Source of the DNA: Myxococcales bacterium
GTDB lineage: Bacteria > Myxococcota > Myxococcia > Myxococcales > JAKAPL01
Direction: 5' to 3'
Length of the DNA stretch: 33,107 nt
Assembly: GCA_021783235.1 (NCBI GenBank)
Contig: JAJXUD010000053.1
Coordinates: forward strand, 1-33,107
Each line of letters opens with the position of its first letter. Position 1 is the first letter of the stretch. Positions 9,798 to 18,102 of the stretch are shown in pieces. The notes beneath the pieces are model-generated. The model was not told the origin of the DNA and ran no database searches. It saw only the letters and a program-made list of their open reading frames with translations. The position numbers were made by a program, and so were the translations under genes.

Positions 9798-11387
9798 TCA
9801 CATCGAAGCGGCGCCGATGACGAGCGGAATCTCGGCGTCGAAGGGATCGCCGGAGAAGTTCGGAAAGACCATTCGTTTGGTCTGGTCGACGAGGCAACCA
9901 CCGAGCGAGCTCCCCGCGAGCCGTCGCACGAGCGCCGCGTCGTCACTCTGGATCTCGGCCTGCCGCACGAGGCCAGAGCTCATGATCGTCGTGACGATTC
10001 GAACCCTCCCGCCCTTGAACGCCGGGTTGCGCTTGAGCTCGCGGTCGATGCACATCGCGTAGCCGCTCTGAAAGTGAGAAATCGTCGCCGCGACCTGCTC
10101 GGCGGTGAGCGGAGCGTCGGCCCGGTCGACCGCCGGAGCCTCCTTCTCGTCGCTGGTGGGCAGCTTGATGTCCTCCCCTGGTCGCTTCGCGTAGAGGCTC
10201 GCGAGCTGCCGGCGCGCCGCGGCGTCCAGCTTATCGACGTGCTGCGCTTCCTTGTGCATGGTGGGCCCCTCCGCCCCCTTGATCCGTGGGCCGGTGGCGA
10301 TCGCCGCGACCGCCTGGCGCTGCTGCCGCTCGGCTCGACGCTTCGCCCCCAGGAGCTCGTCCCTGATCTTCGCGTCGCTCTCGGCGCCCGAGAAGATCGT
10401 CTGGTGCTGGCTGCCGCGATGAGAGACGAGGGGCAGGCTGACGCCCAGGCGCGACAGAAGGAACAGAAGCCCCGCCAGGACGCAGAGCCCTCCGGCGGCG
10501 AACAGCGCGATCCGCTTGGGGGAGCGATGCTCGCTGACCTTTGCTTGGGCGATGATGAAACGGGTCATCTCGCCGGGCTCGGACGGCTGCACCAGATCGG
10601 GAGAGTCGGGGACCGACCCGAATGGATCAGCCTCCTTCTTCGCCGCGAGCTCGGCCTTCCCGCCGGCGCTCGCCGCATCGGCCTCCGCGCCCTCCCCGTC
10701 GGACCCGAAGAGGTCGTCGAGACCCCCGGGGCTCTTCTGCGCCGGGGCGGGCTCTCGGGGAGCCGCCACGACGATCGGCTCGTCCCAGGGGGCGGCGGCG
10801 GGCGCGTCCCAGGGCACCGGGGCCCCGCCGGGTATCACCGCCGAGGCGGGCTCCTCGACCACCGGCTGGGGCTCCTCGACGACCGCCGGCGCGGCTGGCT
10901 CATGCTCGGGAGCAGACTCGCGCCGGTCGGTCTCGCCCTCGATCCAGGTGGCGAGCTCGGGGACCTCCTCGAGCCGCTTCCAATCCTCGAGCCCATCCCG
11001 CCAGACGTAGGTCCGGGCCTTGACCTCGCCGCCACGAAAGCGCTCGGCGAGCTCGTGGCGGGAGAGCGGACCGACCTGTTGCCCGCCCACGAGCGCGAAC
11101 CACTCCTCGGCGGGCACCGGCGGGGGCGCGGGGCGGCGCGCCGGGGAGCTCTGCGGCTCGGACGCGGGGGCGCGGAGCGACTCCTGAAGCCGGCGGAGCT
11201 GCTCGGCGTCCACCATCTGCGTGGATTCCTGGGACATCGGCTCCGGATCGGGCTCCGGAGCCGCCGCTTCTGGCTTGAGCGAGATGATGTTGCCGCACTT
11301 CTTGCACCGAACCTTGAGCGCCTTGCCCCGCGCCTTCTCGTCCGGGACCGTGTAGCGTGTCTGACACTTTCCGCAGACGAACCGCAT
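9798..11387 (-). CDS. GltJ/AgmX-like zinc ribbon-GYF-TonB-like membrane protein
   Basis: 529 residues in the order seen in Myxococcus gliding-machinery GltJ/AgmX. A zinc ribbon with Cys5, 8, 28 and 31 comes first. A GYF-type domain follows at about 95-149 (EEWFALVGGQQVGPLSRHEL to GLEDWKRL). A long Pro/Ala/acidic linker leads to one membrane helix (about 292-315). The periplasmic part ends in an AgmX/TonB-like C-terminal domain (about 425-525, with MCIDRELKRNP and GGRVRIVTTI). In M. xanthus the zinc ribbon and GYF domains face the cytoplasm and bind polarity regulators such as MglA. Here the gene stands alone with its own promoter and no other glt gene nearby, so it may be a paralogue used for another trans-envelope task. 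The start ATG 11387 gives the conserved MRFVCGKC beginning. Confidence 0.85.
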   Translation of the reverse strand: MRFVCGKCQTRYTVPDEKARGKALKVRCKKCGNIISLKPEAAAPEPDPEPMSQESTQMVDAEQLRRLQESLRAPASEPQSSPARRPAPPPVPAEEWFALVGGQQVGPLSRHELAERFRGGEVKARTYVWRDGLEDWKRLEEVPELATWIEGETDRRESAPEHEPAAPAVVEEPQPVVEEPASAVIPGGAPVPWDAPAAAPWDEPIVVAAPREPAPAQKSPGGLDDLFGSDGEGAEADAASAGGKAELAAKKEADPFGSVPDSPDLVQPSEPGEMTRFIIAQAKVSEHRSPKRIALFAAGGLCVLAGLLFLLSRLGVSLPLVSHRGSQHQTIFSGAESDAKIRDELLGAKRRAERQQRQAVAAIATGPRIKGAEGPTMHKEAQHVDKLDAAARRQLASLYAKRPGEDIKLPTSDEKEAPAVDRADAPLTAEQVAATISHFQSGYAMCIDRELKRNPAFKGGRVRIVTTIMSSGLVRQAEIQSDDAALVRRLAGSSLGGCLVDQTKRMVFPNFSGDPFDAEIPLVIGAASM

Positions 11388-11960: not shown

Positions 11961-11976
11961 GCGGCCGTCAGGCCGC
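11961..11976. terminator. Hairpin between convergent FYDLN-type and ferredoxin genes
   Basis: GCGGCC, loop GTCA, GGCCGC: a perfect 6-bp stem. The ferredoxin stop codon lies in the loop. It could stop transcripts from both sides, but there is no T tract. Confidence 0.4.
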
Positions 11977-12453
11977 TTCGGCCTCTTCGCTCTCCGCCTT
12001 CCGCACCTTGGAGGTCGCGAGCCAGTCGGGGAGCTGATCCTTGCGGAAGACGAAGATCGCGTCGTACGGGCAGGCCTTCTCGCACTCCTTGCAGCCCGTG
12101 CACTTGCTCTCCTCGACCTCCATGACCTCGAAATAGGGGCTGTTCGGGTCATCCACCCGAGCGAGGTGGAGGCAGTCGAACGGGCAGCGCTCCTCGCACT
12201 TGTCGCAGCCGGTGCACGCCAACTCGTCGACGAACGCGTAGGGGCGCTGGTTCTTCTTGAGCAGCTCCTGGGGCGCCCCATAGGTGTCGTAGATGGCCGC
12301 CTCGGGGCAGACGACCCCGCACGCGCCGCAATCGATGCAGAGCACGGGATCGATGACGAAGAGCTCCTTGCGCTCGCCCGAGATGGCCTTCGTCGGGCAG
12401 CGCTTCTCGCAAGCCGTGCAGCCGGTGCAGCTCTCGATGATCCGAAAGGCCAT
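11968..12453 (-). CDS. Polyferredoxin with four [4Fe-4S] motifs
   Basis: 161 residues with four complete CX2CX2CX3CP motifs: Cys9/12/15/19, 39/42/45/49, 80/83/86/90 and 118/121/124/128. They form two bacterial-type 2[4Fe-4S] pairs, joined by a ~30-residue spacer. There is no signal peptide, so the protein is cytoplasmic or sits on the cytoplasmic face of a complex. The Ala/Glu-rich tail has no motif. AGGAG precedes ATG 12453. It is the last gene of the Rieske/cytochrome b operon (60 nt after the cytochrome c gene). That position suggests a low-potential electron partner on the inner side of the complex, though it may simply be co-regulated. Confidence 0.9.
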   Translation of the reverse strand: MAFRIIESCTGCTACEKRCPTKAISGERKELFVIDPVLCIDCGACGVVCPEAAIYDTYGAPQELLKKNQRPYAFVDELACTGCDKCEERCPFDCLHLARVDDPNSPYFEVMEVEESKCTGCKECEKACPYDAIFVFRKDQLPDWLATSKVRKAESEEAEAA

Positions 12454-12513: not shown

Positions 12514-15444
12514 CTAGCCCTTGCGCCGCTTCTTCTTGACCGGCTTCTCCGCCGCGGCCGAGCTGCCAGCCTCGGGAGGCATGGCCTCCTTCAGGTGCAT
12601 GAGAAGGTCCCGCAGCGTCTGGATCTGCTTCTGCGCGTCGCCGCCGAAGTACTGCGGCAGCGGCGACGTCCCGTCGGGGAAGAACGAGGGCATCCGGGTG
12701 CCGTCCATGAGCTTCTGGGGATCGGTGATCCAGCTCAGGATCCAGTCTGGACGCAGCCGCTGCTCCGCCATGTAGAGGTTCGGAGCCGCGGTCGACAGAT
12801 CCGTGCCCGGAGGAGGCGAGCCCACGGTGTGGCAGTGGAGGCACTGGAGCTCAGCGAACATCTTCTTCGCCTCGTCCATCTCGGCGGCGGGCGGCATCGG
12901 CGTCTCCGCGTACAGGTACGGCCAGCTCTCGCCCGCGTTCGCCGCGAACCAGTGGATGATCGCGGTCGCCCCCTCGTCGCCGAGCGGGAAGGTCGGCATG
13001 CGGACCTGAAGCCAGGGACGCAGCGGCACCGGATGGCGCAGGAACTGGAAACCCCACGCGGGCTGAATCTTGGCCCCTTCCTTGCTCAGGATGGGGGGCG
13101 CGAAGGAGAGGTTGTCGTCGCTGTAGCGGTCGCGGATGACCCCACCCTTCCCGTCGATGACGTGGCAACCGCGGCAATTGAAGTAGTCGACCCGCTTCGT
13201 CCCTTCGATGATCGCCTGCTTCGTCTCGTCCTGCGCCGCGAGGTACTTGTGCGGCACGCTCGGAGCGCCCTTCTGCGACTTGAGGAAGACCATGAGCGCC
13301 TCGACCTCGCCGTCGTCGAGGTCGAACTGCGGCATGCGGGTATCGACTCGCTCGTAGCGGTAAGCCCGCGGATGGCGAAGCTTCAGGCTGAGCCAGTTGT
13401 ACCAGCTCTGCTTCTTTGGATCGGTGATGGCGTCGCCGAAGTCGAGCAGGTCCACCGCCTTGTTGCCGAACTCCGAGAGGTTCGCGCCGATCTTCTGCGC
13501 CGTCTCGAATCCGTTGATGGTGTGGCACCCGAAGCAGCCGTACTTGCCGATGAGCGACCGACCCTTCTCGACGAGGTCCGCAAAGGCGCGCGGGTCGTAG
13601 CCGGGTTGGAACTCGGGCGGGGTCTTCGAGAAGTCCTCGCCGCCGGTCTGCGTCGACAGGAAGGTGGCGACGTCCGCCGCCTCCTGATCCGAGAGCCGCA
13701 GGTTCGGCATCTTGGTCTCCGACCAGATCGCGGTCGGGTTCTTGACCCACCAGTAGATCCAGCGCTTGTTCGCCTTGGCGCCGATGTTCGAGAGGTCGGG
13801 CGCGAAGTCGCGCGCCTCGCTCGAGGCGAGGGGCCGCCTCGGGTCGCCGGCCTGAACCTTGTGGCAGGCGTAGCAGCCGACGCTCTCGACGAGGGCCTTG
13901 CCGCGCGCGGCGTCCCCCGTCGCGAGGGCCGGCGCGTCGGGCAGGTCCTGCTCTTTCTTCGCCGAGCTCTGCCAGAGGTAGGCCCCGATGGCGGTGACCT
14001 CCTCCTGGCGCAGCCGAGCCCAGGGCGAGCCCTCCTTCACCTTCCCCGTCTTCGCGTCGATCGCCTCGGGCCAGAAATTCGGCATCCGCGTGTGGGGCCG
14101 CCAGGCCCGCGGGTACTGGATCCAGTTGATGAGCCAAGCGGGCGTCACCTTCTCTTGCAGCGAAGTGAGCGTCGGACCCGGGTGGCGCATCTTCTCGTAG
14201 CCGTCGATCGGGTGGCAGCCGGCGCACCCGATCTCGGCCATGAACTTGCGGCCCCGATCGAGCACCGGCGCGAACGCAAGGTCGGTGTCGGTCCGGTGGC
14301 ACTGCGCGCACATGGCCTCGACGAAGGCGTGGTCGGGCAGCGTCTTGCCGTTCACCTTGGCGAGGTCGAGCAGCGGCTCGTTCCAGTGGCCCCAGTAATG
14401 ATCGTCGTAGCCGTGCTCGAACTTCTCCCAGCCGATCCCCTTGGTCTGGGGGCCCTCGCCGCCGTGGCACACCGTGCAGCCGAAGCTGCTCGGGGGATGG
14501 TTGTTGCCGAGGATCTCGGTCCGGTACGGGTGGCTCTTGAAGACGAGCGGAAGGTCGTAGCCCGTGAAGCTCGTCCGCTTGGGATCCTTGTCGAGCTCCT
14601 CTTCCCACTTCTGGATGCGGGCCGCGTCGACGCAGTACTTCTTCGTCAGCGCCGCGTCGTCGACGTTCCCCGCCGCCTCCATCGCCTTGCGGTCGGCGAC
14701 GACCTCGTGGGGATCGCTGAAGCCGCAGCTGTTGATGGCGGTGTGGCAGTTCTCGCAACGATCGACCCGGTCGAGCTCCGGCAGCCAGAGCTGCGTCATC
14801 TCGGTGCCCTTGTCCGCCGCCTTCGCGAGCTTCCGCTGGGCGTCGAGGACGGGCGCCTCGAGGTCGTCGAGCTTCTTCTGGAGCTCCGTGATCCGGCCCG
14901 CGAACTGGTCGAAGCGAGCCTGGGCCCGATCGCGCTCGATCGTCACCTGCGCGAGCGTCTGGTTCAGGCCGTCGACGCGCCGCTCGACCTCATGCATCGC
15001 CTTCTCTGCCTCGGGGAGTTCGTCCTTCATCTCCTCGTGGACCGCGTGCTTGTACTGATAGTAGGCGGCGTCGAGGTCGCTCTTCGCGAACTTGACGTTC
15101 TGCTCGGACTCCGAAACCTTGATGTCGAGCCGGTCGAGATCGGCCTGCGCCTTCTCGTAGGGTGCGCGCTTCGCGGGATCGCGAACGGCCGCCTCGGCCT
15201 CGCCGAGCTGCTTCTTCAGCTCCGCGACCTCGTCCGCGTGCGTCTTGTACTCCGCCTGGGCGACCGAGAGGTCGTGCTCGGTCTTCGGCACGAGGTACTT
15301 CGAGACGAAGACGTCCTGGTACTGCTTCCAGGGGCGCCGGCCCACGAACTCCTCGTAGAACGCCCACGCCGTGCTGAGGGCGATGAGCGTCGACAGGACG
15401 AAGAAGGCGAGGCTCAGATTTTGTCGTTCGACCGGCTTACCCAC
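12514..15444 (-). CDS. Octaheme c-type cytochrome with membrane anchor and coiled-coil stalk
   Basis: 976 residues. A single N-terminal helix (about 10-30) anchors the protein. Residues ~50-215 are charged and heptad-rich, forming a long coiled coil. Eight CXXCH motifs follow, at Cys230, 323, 379, 407, 524, 637, 757 and 868. The last five are each followed by an (R/K)MP motif, at Met454, 579, 704, 816 and 918. That is the usual axial Met of class I cytochrome c, so these look like five tandem monoheme domains. The first three hemes have no such Met and probably have bis-His or other ligation. The C-terminus is Lys/Arg-rich. The GTG start gives a proper signal-anchor. The gene lies 63 nt after subunit IV, so the protein is presumably the electron-accepting arm of the bc complex, passing electrons outward along a heme wire. 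Confidence 0.93.
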   Translation of the reverse strand: MGKPVERQNLSLAFFVLSTLIALSTAWAFYEEFVGRRPWKQYQDVFVSKYLVPKTEHDLSVAQAEYKTHADEVAELKKQLGEAEAAVRDPAKRAPYEKAQADLDRLDIKVSESEQNVKFAKSDLDAAYYQYKHAVHEEMKDELPEAEKAMHEVERRVDGLNQTLAQVTIERDRAQARFDQFAGRITELQKKLDDLEAPVLDAQRKLAKAADKGTEMTQLWLPELDRVDRCENCHTAINSCGFSDPHEVVADRKAMEAAGNVDDAALTKKYCVDAARIQKWEEELDKDPKRTSFTGYDLPLVFKSHPYRTEILGNNHPPSSFGCTVCHGGEGPQTKGIGWEKFEHGYDDHYWGHWNEPLLDLAKVNGKTLPDHAFVEAMCAQCHRTDTDLAFAPVLDRGRKFMAEIGCAGCHPIDGYEKMRHPGPTLTSLQEKVTPAWLINWIQYPRAWRPHTRMPNFWPEAIDAKTGKVKEGSPWARLRQEEVTAIGAYLWQSSAKKEQDLPDAPALATGDAARGKALVESVGCYACHKVQAGDPRRPLASSEARDFAPDLSNIGAKANKRWIYWWVKNPTAIWSETKMPNLRLSDQEAADVATFLSTQTGGEDFSKTPPEFQPGYDPRAFADLVEKGRSLIGKYGCFGCHTINGFETAQKIGANLSEFGNKAVDLLDFGDAITDPKKQSWYNWLSLKLRHPRAYRYERVDTRMPQFDLDDGEVEALMVFLKSQKGAPSVPHKYLAAQDETKQAIIEGTKRVDYFNCRGCHVIDGKGGVIRDRYSDDNLSFAPPILSKEGAKIQPAWGFQFLRHPVPLRPWLQVRMPTFPLGDEGATAIIHWFAANAGESWPYLYAETPMPPAAEMDEAKKMFAELQCLHCHTVGSPPPGTDLSTAAPNLYMAEQRLRPDWILSWITDPQKLMDGTRMPSFFPDGTSPLPQYFGGDAQKQIQTLRDLLMHLKEAMPPEAGSSAAAEKPVKKKRRKG

Positions 15445-15507: not shown

Positions 15508-16326
15508 TCAAATGTTGATCACGTTGGGGACGACCATGATGTACTTCACGGCAAGCGTCCAACGCAGGACCATCTTCACCACGATGCCGAGCTCGGTGAA
15601 GAAGAGGAACGACACGATGCCGTAGCGGACTGCCCCGAGCTCCCTCATCCAGGGCCTGTCACGCAGGAGCCACCAGACGGCCGGAATGAGGCTGAAGTAG
15701 GCGCCGACGAGGGCCATGCCGACGAGCATCTGCCCAATCTCGGTCCGCGCTCCGAGGAGGTAAGGCAGGTCGACGTTCGTCATGGCGACGACCTTGTGCG
15801 GATCCCAGTAGGCGCCCGGCAAGAAGAAGTTCCAGCCCGGGCCTCGAAAGAAGACGCCGATGACGATCTGCACGCACCAGAGCGCGAGGAACCCGAAGAG
15901 GAAGGTCCCCATCGCGAACTTGCGCTCCTTCCAGGTGTAGTAGCCGTTTCCCTTCGGGTTGATGTCCACGTAGGGGATGACCATCAGGCCGACGATGATG
16001 AGCGACGGCGCAACGACGCCCGCGAACCAGGGATCGAAGTAGACGAGCATCTCCTGGAGGCCGAGGAAGTACCAGGGCGCCTTCGACGGATTCGGCGTCT
16101 TGGTCGGGTTCGCGGGCTCCTCCATCGGCGCGTCGATGGTGATGGACCAGATGAGCAGGCCGAGGATCAGCACGCAGCCCGCGATGAATTCGGCGCGGAC
16201 CAGGTACGGCCAGGTGTGCACCTTGTCGGGCAGCTCCGAGAGCGCGGCCGCGCGCCTCTTGCCGGCCGTGACCTTGATCTCCTCGGCCTGTAACCCGCTG
16301 TCGATCGGAGCCAAACTCTCAGCCAT
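15508..16326 (-). CDS. Cytochrome b C-terminal subunit (subunit IV-like)
   Basis: 272-residue membrane protein corresponding to the C-terminal half of cytochrome b (PetD-like). It helps form the quinol-oxidation (Qo) site and packs against the heme-bearing subunit. There are about five to six hydrophobic segments (starting near residues 45, 100, 137, 190 and 235). The Qo motif PEWY of mitochondria and plastids is replaced by APWY (83-86) within KAPWYFLGLQEML, a form common in menaquinol-oxidising bc complexes; Glu92 in LQEM could serve as proton acceptor. It has a ~45-residue N-terminal extension. ATG 16326 with GAGGAG upstream is preferred over an upstream in-frame start. It lies 34 nt after the b6-type gene. 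Confidence 0.9.
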   Translation of the reverse strand: MAESLAPIDSGLQAEEIKVTAGKRRAAALSELPDKVHTWPYLVRAEFIAGCVLILGLLIWSITIDAPMEEPANPTKTPNPSKAPWYFLGLQEMLVYFDPWFAGVVAPSLIIVGLMVIPYVDINPKGNGYYTWKERKFAMGTFLFGFLALWCVQIVIGVFFRGPGWNFFLPGAYWDPHKVVAMTNVDLPYLLGARTEIGQMLVGMALVGAYFSLIPAVWWLLRDRPWMRELGAVRYGIVSFLFFTELGIVVKMVLRWTLAVKYIMVVPNVINI

Positions 16327-16360
16327 GGCGACTCCTCGAATGGAGAGTTGCGCGGAGGAT

Positions 16361-17170
16361 CTAGAGCGGCCCGCTGATCCCGCCATCCTTCCGGATGCGC
16401 CAGAAGTGCAGGATCATCAGGATGCTCGCGATGATGGGGATGAAGATGCAGTGGAGGACGTAGAAGCGCAGCAGGGTGGGCGCGCCGACCAGCGTGCCCG
16501 CGGTGAGGAAGGAGCGCGCGTCGTAGCGCGCCGTCATGCCGAGCTGCGGGCCGAAGGGACCCTGGTGGCCGAGGAGCGGCGTCGCGCGGGCCATGTTGGT
16601 GCCGACGGTCACCGCCCAGATGGCGAGCTGATCCCAAGGCAGCAGGTAGCCCGTGAACGAGAGCAGGAGCGTGAGCACGAGCAGGTTGACGCCGACGACC
16701 CAGTTGAACTCGCGAGGCGGCTTGTACGACCCGGTCATGAAGACGCGCAGCATGTGGAGCCAGATGAAGAGCACCATGCCGTGCGCCGCCCAGCGGTGCA
16801 TGTTCCGCATGAGGAAGCCGAAGGGCACGTCGAAGTCGAGGTACTTGACGTCCCAGTAGGCGTATTCCTGCACGGGCCGGTAGTAGAACATCAGCACGAC
16901 GCCCGTGACGACGGTCACGAGGTAGAGCAAGAACGTGAGCCCCCCCGCGCACCAGGTGTGCCGATAGCGGATGCCGTGGCGACGGGTCTTCGAGGGGTGC
17001 AGGTGCAGCCAGACGTTCGCCGAAACCTGCAAGACGCGGTTTCGGGGCGAGTCCTCGTAGCCGTGGCGGAAGATCGACCGCCAGGCAGGGCTCGTGAAGA
17101 GGCGGGCGAGCGAGCTCTCCTTCTTCGAGGGGGCGCTCGGGCTCTCGGGTGGCTTCTTTGCGTCCGGCAT
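16361..17170 (-). CDS. Cytochrome b6-type subunit
   Basis: 269 residues with four core membrane helices and two heme-b sites. The axial His pairs are His125/His139 ([16 protein letters not shown]) and His240/His255. The second pair is separated by 14 residues, the b6f-type spacing. The C-terminus [10 protein letters not shown] matches b6 proteins. Cys74, in WCAGGLTF just before [13 protein letters not shown], falls where b6 has Cys35, the residue that covalently holds the extra heme c(n)/c(i). A ~50-residue soluble N-terminal extension precedes the core. It oxidises quinol together with subunit IV and the Rieske protein. It lies 30 nt after the Rieske gene. Confidence 0.94.
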
Positions 17171-17200: not shown

Positions 17201-17728
17201 TCAGCCGTGGAACTTGAGGAAGGAGCCCGGCTTTCCCCACTGGCCGAGCTCTTTTCGGAAGGTGATCGCCTTGTCGCAGAGGAGCTGCCCATCGTCGGCC
17301 AGCGCGATGAAGATGTGCTCCATCGGCCGTGGCGCCGGACCTTCGAAGTTCGTCCCGTCCATGTGGTAGCCGGAGCCGTGGCAGGGGCACTTGAACTTGT
17401 CCTCGCCGGCGAGCCAGCGCGGCGTGCAGCCGAGGTGGGTGCAGACGGCGAGGATCGAGAAGAGGCCGTCGGGCCAGCGGACGATCCAGCAGCGGTAGTC
17501 CTTCATCCAGCGGCTGGAGACGGTGTTGACCGTGTAGTCGGTGGGGAAGCCGGCCTTCCACTTCGTGGGAGGCTCGAACAGCACGCGGGGGAACATGAAG
17601 CGGACGAAGGCGGCTCCCGCGGCCCCGAAGCAGGTCAGGATCGCTCCCCAGCCCGCGAGGGACAGGAGCTCGCGGCGCGACCAGATGTGCTCGCCGCTCC
17701 CCTCGTCACGGATGGCTTCGGCAGGCAT
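17201..17728 (-). CDS. Rieske [2Fe-2S] protein of a bc complex
   Basis: 175 residues. The N-terminus has a Tat-like SRRELL motif (17-22) before a hydrophobic helix (about 23-45), so it is probably Tat-exported and stays anchored. The cluster-binding loops are CTHLGC (96-101) and CPCHGSG (114-120). Cys96, His98, Cys114 and His117 should bind the cluster, and Cys101-Cys116 should form the stabilising disulfide. The GxxYHMDG loop follows. It takes one electron from quinol at the Qo site and passes it to the cytochrome c partner. It is the first gene of the operon, preceded by a strong promoter and a GGAGG ribosome site. Confidence 0.94.
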   Translation of the reverse strand: MPAEAIRDEGSGEHIWSRRELLSLAGWGAILTCFGAAGAAFVRFMFPRVLFEPPTKWKAGFPTDYTVNTVSSRWMKDYRCWIVRWPDGLFSILAVCTHLGCTPRWLAGEDKFKCPCHGSGYHMDGTNFEGPAPRPMEHIFIALADDGQLLCDKAITFRKELGQWGKPGSFLKFHG

Positions 17729-17925: not shown

Positions 17926-18102
17926 ATGTACTCCTGGGACAACATCTGGCTCATCGTCTCGAAGCCCGACAACATCCCCATTCTCATGCTGATCGTGGCC
18001 GTCGGCTTCTTCACCCTCTACGGCCTGCGCGACGCGTTCCGGAACGACAAGCTGATCGCCGAAGGCCGCAAGGACGAGATCCTGCGCCGCATGCAGGAGT
18101 GA
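17926..18102 (+). CDS. Small single-span membrane protein next to the bc operon
   Basis: 58 residues: a short N-terminus (MYSWDNIWLIVSKPDN), one membrane helix (about 17-35, IPILMLIVAVGFFTLYGL) and a charged C-terminal tail ending ILRRMQE. The strong GGAGG site 7-8 nt upstream fixes the start at ATG 17926; longer in-frame starts upstream would read through the divergent promoters. I do not recognise the family with certainty. Size, topology and position opposite the Rieske gene are what one expects of a small accessory subunit of a respiratory complex, but this is inference from context only. Confidence 0.7.
   Translation: MYSWDNIWLIVSKPDNIPILMLIVAVGFFTLYGLRDAFRNDKLIAEGRKDEILRRMQE

Follow-up and report, generated by a model that had tools for sequence, protein, structure and literature searches.

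A putative octaheme cytochrome c subunit of a b6f-like Rieske/cytochrome b complex encoded by a Myxococcales bacterium

Textbook quinol oxidases of the Rieske/cytochrome b class end in a cytochrome that carries one or two hemes. What role might then be played by a single polypeptide with eight heme-binding motifs, encoded beside Rieske and cytochrome b genes in a 33,107 bp stretch of Myxococcales DNA (the window)? The initial annotation took this protein to be a built-in heme wire, in which a coiled-coil stalk between the membrane anchor and the hemes lifts electrons away from the complex and takes the place of both cytochrome c1 and a diffusible cytochrome c. The genes, the ligands and the relatives of the protein bear on this idea as follows.

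The octaheme gene, its operon and its relatives

The features of the locus are collected in Table 1. The genes for the Rieske protein, cytochrome b6, subunit IV, the octaheme cytochrome c and a four-cluster ferredoxin follow one another on one strand, and a search across the organism's own 4.58-Mb genome found the octaheme gene in single copy. All four core genes are present in 62 of the 80 named loci in our comparison set, and they stand in the order Rieske-b6-subunit IV-octaheme on one strand in every one of these (62/62). This survey of the Myxococcota and beyond, together with the Pfam assignments, confirms the initial placement of the protein in a Rieske/b6/subunit IV operon, and at the gene level the octaheme cytochrome does take the operon position of cytochrome c1/f. 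Downstream of the operon (9798-11387, minus strand) the window encodes a zinc ribbon and GYF_2 domain protein that weakly resembles the gliding protein GltJ.

Table 1. Positions of features in the window
Feature	Coordinates	Strand	Basis and remarks
58-aa one-helix protein, SKPDNIPI motif	17926..18102	+	Divergent, upstream of Rieske gene; hydropathy and locus comparison
Rieske protein, CTHLGC..CPCHGSGY	17201..17728	-	Pfam PF00355 and alignment
Cytochrome b6	16361..17170	-	Pfam PF00033 and alignment
Subunit IV, five predicted membrane helices, Qo motif APWY	15508..16386	-	Pfam PF00032 and hydropathy
Octaheme cytochrome c subunit (putative)	12514..15444	-	976 aa, GTG start; ORF, Pfam and alignment
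N-terminal membrane anchor, residues 11-35	15340..15414	-	AF2 helix, hydropathy
Helical (coiled-coil) region, residues 38-211	14812..15333	-	AF2 and heptad test; lacking in some relatives
Triheme module, hemes 1-3 (C230, C323, C379), candidate distal His 305/316/344	14296..14757	-	Invariant in 70/70; pentaheme relatives show matching His
Class-I heme 4, CAGCH at 407, Met454	14083..14226	-	Motif and alignment
Class-I heme 5, CYACH at 524, Met579	13708..13875	-	Pfam, motif and alignment
Class-I heme 6, CFGCH at 637, Met704	13333..13536	-	Motif and alignment
Class-I heme 7, CRGCH at 757, Met816	12997..13176	-	Motif and alignment
Class-I heme 8, CLHCH at 868, Met918	12691..12843	-	Motif and alignment
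Ferredoxin, four [4Fe-4S] motifs	11968..12453	-	Directly downstream of octaheme gene; Pfam

Pfam recognizes three significant class-I cytochrome c stretches in the octaheme protein and a c7-like match at residues 316-411, and the relatives retain the full length down to ~30% identity. According to the labels of the deposited records, of which those on metagenome bins can be wrong, these relatives are spread over at least 11 phyla: Myxococcota, Planctomycetota, Acidobacteriota, Binatota, Methylomirabilota, Nitrospirota, Ignavibacteriota, Chlorobiota, Omnitrophota, Hydrogenedentota and FCPU426, with Kryptonia and Abditibacteriales in addition. One record labelled Klebsiella pneumoniae (L052, CAMBZJ010000047.1) carries a Binatota-like octaheme operon, is placed among Binatota-like sequences and is probably a mislabelled or contaminated bin. 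The octaheme type is present in 24 of 195 Myxococcota genomes, and a quick tree, which has several long branches, groups the sequences mostly by phylum and puts the window inside the Myxococcota. A search of viral contigs found no relatives.

The ligand columns of the Rieske [2Fe-2S] motif CTHLGC...CPCHG are invariant (63/63), and the window protein has Ser119 and Tyr121. In cytochrome b6 the heme b ligands H125, H139, H240 and H255 are also present in 63/63. Cys74 of b6, which is found in 44 of the 63 sequences and missing from the other 19, aligns with Cys35 of plant b6, the attachment site of heme cn. The b6 motif HLHP (H56/H58) is invariant as well (63/63), and its first His has been proposed, as a model prediction, to bind an extra interface heme b in Kuenenia (PMC12954380). 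The window subunit IV has five hydropathy peaks, and all 72 subunit IV sequences have APWY where b6f has PEWY in the PDB alignment, so the usual Glu of that Qo motif is absent; since the Qo motif varies by lineage (PMC9162462), the missing PEWY does not exclude membership in the b6f/bc group.

The 58-aa protein encoded upstream of the Rieske gene matched no Pfam family. Of the 62 complete loci, 51 contain its PDN(I/V)PI module (54 loci overall), which is a small gene of its own in the Myxococcota and anammox bacteria and is fused to the N-terminus of subunit IV in most other relatives; in Binatota and Methylomirabilota no copy turned up in the vicinity of the operon. Its fusion to subunit IV suggests, from sequence comparison, that this so far unnamed protein is a probable small subunit of the complex.

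Heme ligands and the helical region

The eight CXXCH motifs lie at residues 230, 323, 379, 407, 524, 637, 757 and 868, and the last five are separated by 117, 113, 120 and 111 residues. Each of these five is followed by an RMP or KMP (M454, M579, M704, M816 and M918), while the first three have no such Met and are accompanied by exactly three extra conserved His residues (305, 316 and 344). In a 70-row alignment, to which only sequences with eight CXXCH motifs were admitted, irrespective of their distal His and Met, each of the 16 candidate ligands (eight proximal His, five Met and three His) is present in 70/70, and, the start Met aside, these are the sole His/Met columns that are more than 60% conserved. 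Because the distal residues are invariant although they were not selected for, the alignment points to probable bis-His ligation of hemes 1-3 and His/Met ligation of hemes 4-8. The heme layout that was initially proposed, with eight motifs in one polypeptide, (R/K)MP after the last five at a regular spacing (111-120 residues) and three early hemes without Met, holds in full, and its 3 + 5 split now has candidate ligands assigned to it.

The AF2 model of the whole octaheme protein has a pLDDT of 89.8 and a pTM of 0.82. It places a membrane helix at residues 11-35, followed by the invariant columns of an RPWK..Q..F motif (residues 37-46), and predicts helices at residues 38-68, 70-88, 94-136 and 143-211. 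When hemes 1-4 (residues 213-500) were folded alone the result was poor (pLDDT 70, pTM 0.41), and this drop in confidence relative to the full-length model is a weak hint that the triheme module may pack on the rest of the protein. Structural matches to the poor 213-500 fold were rejected as meaningless.

A coiled coil of ~165 residues had been proposed between the anchor and the hemes. Its helical nature appears real, as AF2 predicts it and its heptad periodicity is greater than in all 500 shuffles, but the model indicates several helices with turns between them and not one 165-residue rod, and these helices may well fold back against each other. The RPWK motif and heme 1 are 150-244 residues apart in 68 of the 70 rows, and 40 and 75 residues apart in L061 and L086. 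Three relatives (L014, L017 and L018) lack the helical region and keep every heme ligand in the alignment of relatives, so the region is usual yet dispensable for the heme set. In the published Kuenenia model (PMC12954380) the long helices of the octaheme protein wind around the complex as well as the Rieske protein. A Foldseek search of the PDB with our full octaheme model matched only unrelated coiled coils, none at E<0.001. Thus, the turns, the coil-less relatives and the Kuenenia model all speak against the proposed heme-lifting stalk, and the helical hairpins probably act as a clamp round the membrane-embedded part and the head of the Rieske protein.

The proposed electron route and its alternatives

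Among the 73 loci that have room downstream, 53 have a blue-copper protein gene next to the octaheme gene (for example L033:6984-7670, L055:5462-6151 and L081:8538-9236), and in L073 and L074 it is located after a ferredoxin gene. The encoded protein is secreted, has the motif D...HN ... C..H.WM and a CarboxypepD-like C-terminal domain, and matches a blue-copper domain in the PDB (E 1.6e-5) and, more weakly, amicyanins. There is no such gene in the window operon or in those of L031 and L032; a homologue of 40% identity is present elsewhere in the organism's own genome (contig C90). This neighbor makes it probable that a mobile carrier is kept alongside the octaheme complex, and the suggestion that the heme protein replaces the diffusible carrier is not borne out. 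Several octaheme loci also contain aa3 oxidase genes, and the CoxB proteins encoded near the operon in seven loci are all (7/7) without a heme or cytochrome c domain. The organism has further quinol and oxidase systems on its contigs C21, C61 and C62 (L134, L135 and L113): C21 carries what appears to be a full alternative complex III, assigned by its sequence features and not by a family search, alongside a caa3 oxidase, and the organism also encodes another aa3 oxidase and a fusion of cytochrome b with two heme domains. The COX1 encoded on C61 is 43-50% identical to the octaheme-linked COX1s, and that of the C21 caa3 oxidase 34-40%.

The gene order in 62/62 loci, the 16 invariant ligands, the published Nitrospina, Kuenenia and M. 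oxyfera operons, the Kuenenia model, the adjoining blue-copper gene, the heme-less CoxB and the closer C61 COX1 argue that the octaheme protein serves as cytochrome c subunit in a b6f-like Rieske/cytochrome b complex of the octaheme (anammox R/b-2) type with the following route, and we give this reading a probability of roughly 0.78. Quinol would be oxidized at the Qo site of cytochrome b6/subunit IV; one electron would pass by the Rieske cluster to the octaheme subunit, which would stand at the position of cytochrome c1/f, and the other would reach the cytoplasmic side by way of the hemes b. A high-potential outward route would be formed by the five His/Met class-I hemes and a separate cluster by the three bis-His hemes, and electrons would leave the complex most likely to the periplasmic blue-copper protein, or else straight to the CuA of an aa3 oxidase. 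We infer that the likely chain runs from quinol through the Rieske protein, the octaheme cytochrome and the blue-copper protein to an aa3 oxidase. For the window family this acceptor is carried over by analogy from the gene neighborhood of relatives, as its own operon has no copper-protein gene, and acceptors may differ by lineage, since the anammox relatives have an NAD(P) oxidoreductase and no copper gene. The apparent alternative complex III with caa3 and the cytochrome b-diheme fusion in the same genome also weigh against this reading. Furthermore, bis-His hemes are often of low potential, and such hemes would fit badly in a route that starts from a high-potential Rieske cluster. We found neither biochemistry on octaheme subunits of this type nor an account of their purification.

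A built-in wire on a stalk as initially proposed, which might then deliver the electrons directly to an oxidase or some other enzyme of the periplasm, could draw on the eight hemes in one chain, on the three operons without a copper-protein gene (the window, L031 and L032) and on the heme-less CoxB of the neighboring oxidases; the blue-copper gene at 53/73 relatives with its homologue in the organism's own genome, and the helical evidence given above, make it quite improbable. Many hemes might also suggest a conduit for extracellular electron transfer, from the octaheme protein to outer-membrane multiheme cytochromes, and the b subunits do resemble the Geobacter selenite/tellurite ExtP/ExtQ models, but they miss the curated cut-offs of these; the recurrent neighbors are blue-copper and aa3 oxidase genes, no multiheme porin system stood out among them, and we regard such a conduit as very unlikely indeed. 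The selenite/tellurite ExtNOPQRS type itself was rejected on scores of 263.7, 60.9 and 42.7 bits for ExtP, ExtQ and ExtS against curated cut-offs of 290, 150 and 100 bits, respectively.

A different alternative concerns the cytoplasmic side. In the window family a four-cluster ferredoxin gene occupies the place that the blue-copper gene has in most relatives, directly downstream of the octaheme gene in the window, L031 and L032. Ferredoxins are also encoded near the operon in Planctomycetota, Abditibacteriales and Ignavibacteria/Kryptonia/Chlorobiota; genes similar to that of the window were found in two groups other than the window family, and shorter ones in Ignavibacteria-like loci. In the anammox relatives the operon includes a gene for an FAD/FeS NAD(P) oxidoreductase, and there is no blue-copper gene. 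This oxidoreductase gene is absent from the window operon and was found in-operon only in the anammox-type loci among those surveyed, so it marks the anammox branch and not the octaheme type. Bifurcation has already been proposed for Kuenenia (PMC12954380), and in the window a low-potential electron could analogously leave for the cytoplasmic ferredoxin through heme cn, and possibly through an interface heme b bound by the HLHP His, while the high-potential electron enters the octaheme arm. The ferredoxin neighbors of several groups, the anammox oxidoreductase, the alignment of Cys74 with Cys35 of b6f and the HLHP His in 63/63 are in its favor. However, the ferredoxin may be a functionally unrelated neighbor, and the majority of octaheme loci lack one. 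Cys74 is absent from 19/63 and does not track the ferredoxin (L066 has the ferredoxin and lacks the Cys), and with menaquinol as donor the reaction would be energetically steep unless something else drove it; we consider such bifurcation unlikely. The broader idea that octaheme complexes are two-ended machines well beyond the anammox bacteria, with an extra cytoplasmic port (heme cn, the HLHP interface heme b, and a ferredoxin or NAD(P) oxidoreductase) besides the periplasmic octaheme arm, is a long shot; if true, quinol oxidation would be divided beyond the anammox bacteria between blue copper/oxidase and the reduction of ferredoxin.

Comparison with known systems

The b6f-like complex favored here is of a kind that has been reported before. 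Luecker 2013 (PMC3578206) described in Nitrospina gracilis a bc-like operon with an adjacent atypical octaheme cytochrome c, and noted that Kuenenia and Methylomirabilis oxyfera share it; the N. gracilis and M. oxyfera loci lie outside our 80-locus set and are likened to the window by this published description of a b6f-like operon with an adjacent octaheme c. Hauser 2025 (PMC12954380) determined Rieske protein structures for two Kuenenia complexes and built a model of Kustd1480-1485, the one with the larger, octaheme c subunit (the text has "hexa- or octaheme" for both complexes jointly). A homologue of the same architecture has therefore already been described at the level of genes and of a model, the window protein is a further example of this biochemically little studied kind, and still earlier descriptions may exist. 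What the present comparison adds is the survey of the eight-heme version and its fixed ligand set over at least 11 phyla, the PDN(I/V)PI protein, the APWY Qo motif without the Glu of PEWY, the extension to the whole type of the HLHP His discussed for Kuenenia, and the ferredoxin in the place of the copper gene. It also supplies testable partners in the blue-copper protein, the heme-less aa3 oxidases and the one-helix PDN(I/V)PI protein.

The closest of the known systems is Kuenenia stuttgartiensis R/b-2 (Kustd1480-1485, with octaheme Kustd1485), which is alike in its Rieske protein, its b6-like cytochrome b, its octaheme protein with long helices and its five-helix subunit IV (PMC12954380), the latter as predicted for the window protein. 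Its counterpart in our set by residue numbering is the Kuenenia hertensis locus L070, which has the same core gene order and a small PDNIPI gene (L070:5159-5314). The L070 Rieske protein, with its start at M12, has the redox-tuning pair S114/F116 and its b6 has H62, R266 and K267, all as in PMC12954380, and the L070 match spans residues 11-951 of the octaheme protein with the same 16 ligands. The window differs in having Tyr121 where Kuenenia has Phe, and a terminal four-cluster ferredoxin instead of the in-operon NAD(P) oxidoreductase of the anammox loci. Cytochrome b6f of plants and cyanobacteria has in common with the window the split b6/subunit IV, the heme cn Cys position and the Rieske type, but here the octaheme c replaces cytochrome f, subunit IV has five helices and APWY in place of PEWY, and the HLHP motif is outside the b6f-aligned part. 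The pentaheme bc cytochromes of L020-L022, L028 and L030, which are Anaeromyxobacter-like (the genus is a guess), have a similar anchor and triheme module, the three matching His and an adjoining cytochrome b gene; they differ in having only two class-I hemes (3+2) and an unsplit cytochrome b. Alternative complex III (ActABCDEF), of which C21 apparently encodes a copy, likewise oxidizes quinol with multiheme cytochromes, but its membrane subunits are unrelated and it has neither a Rieske protein nor a cytochrome b.
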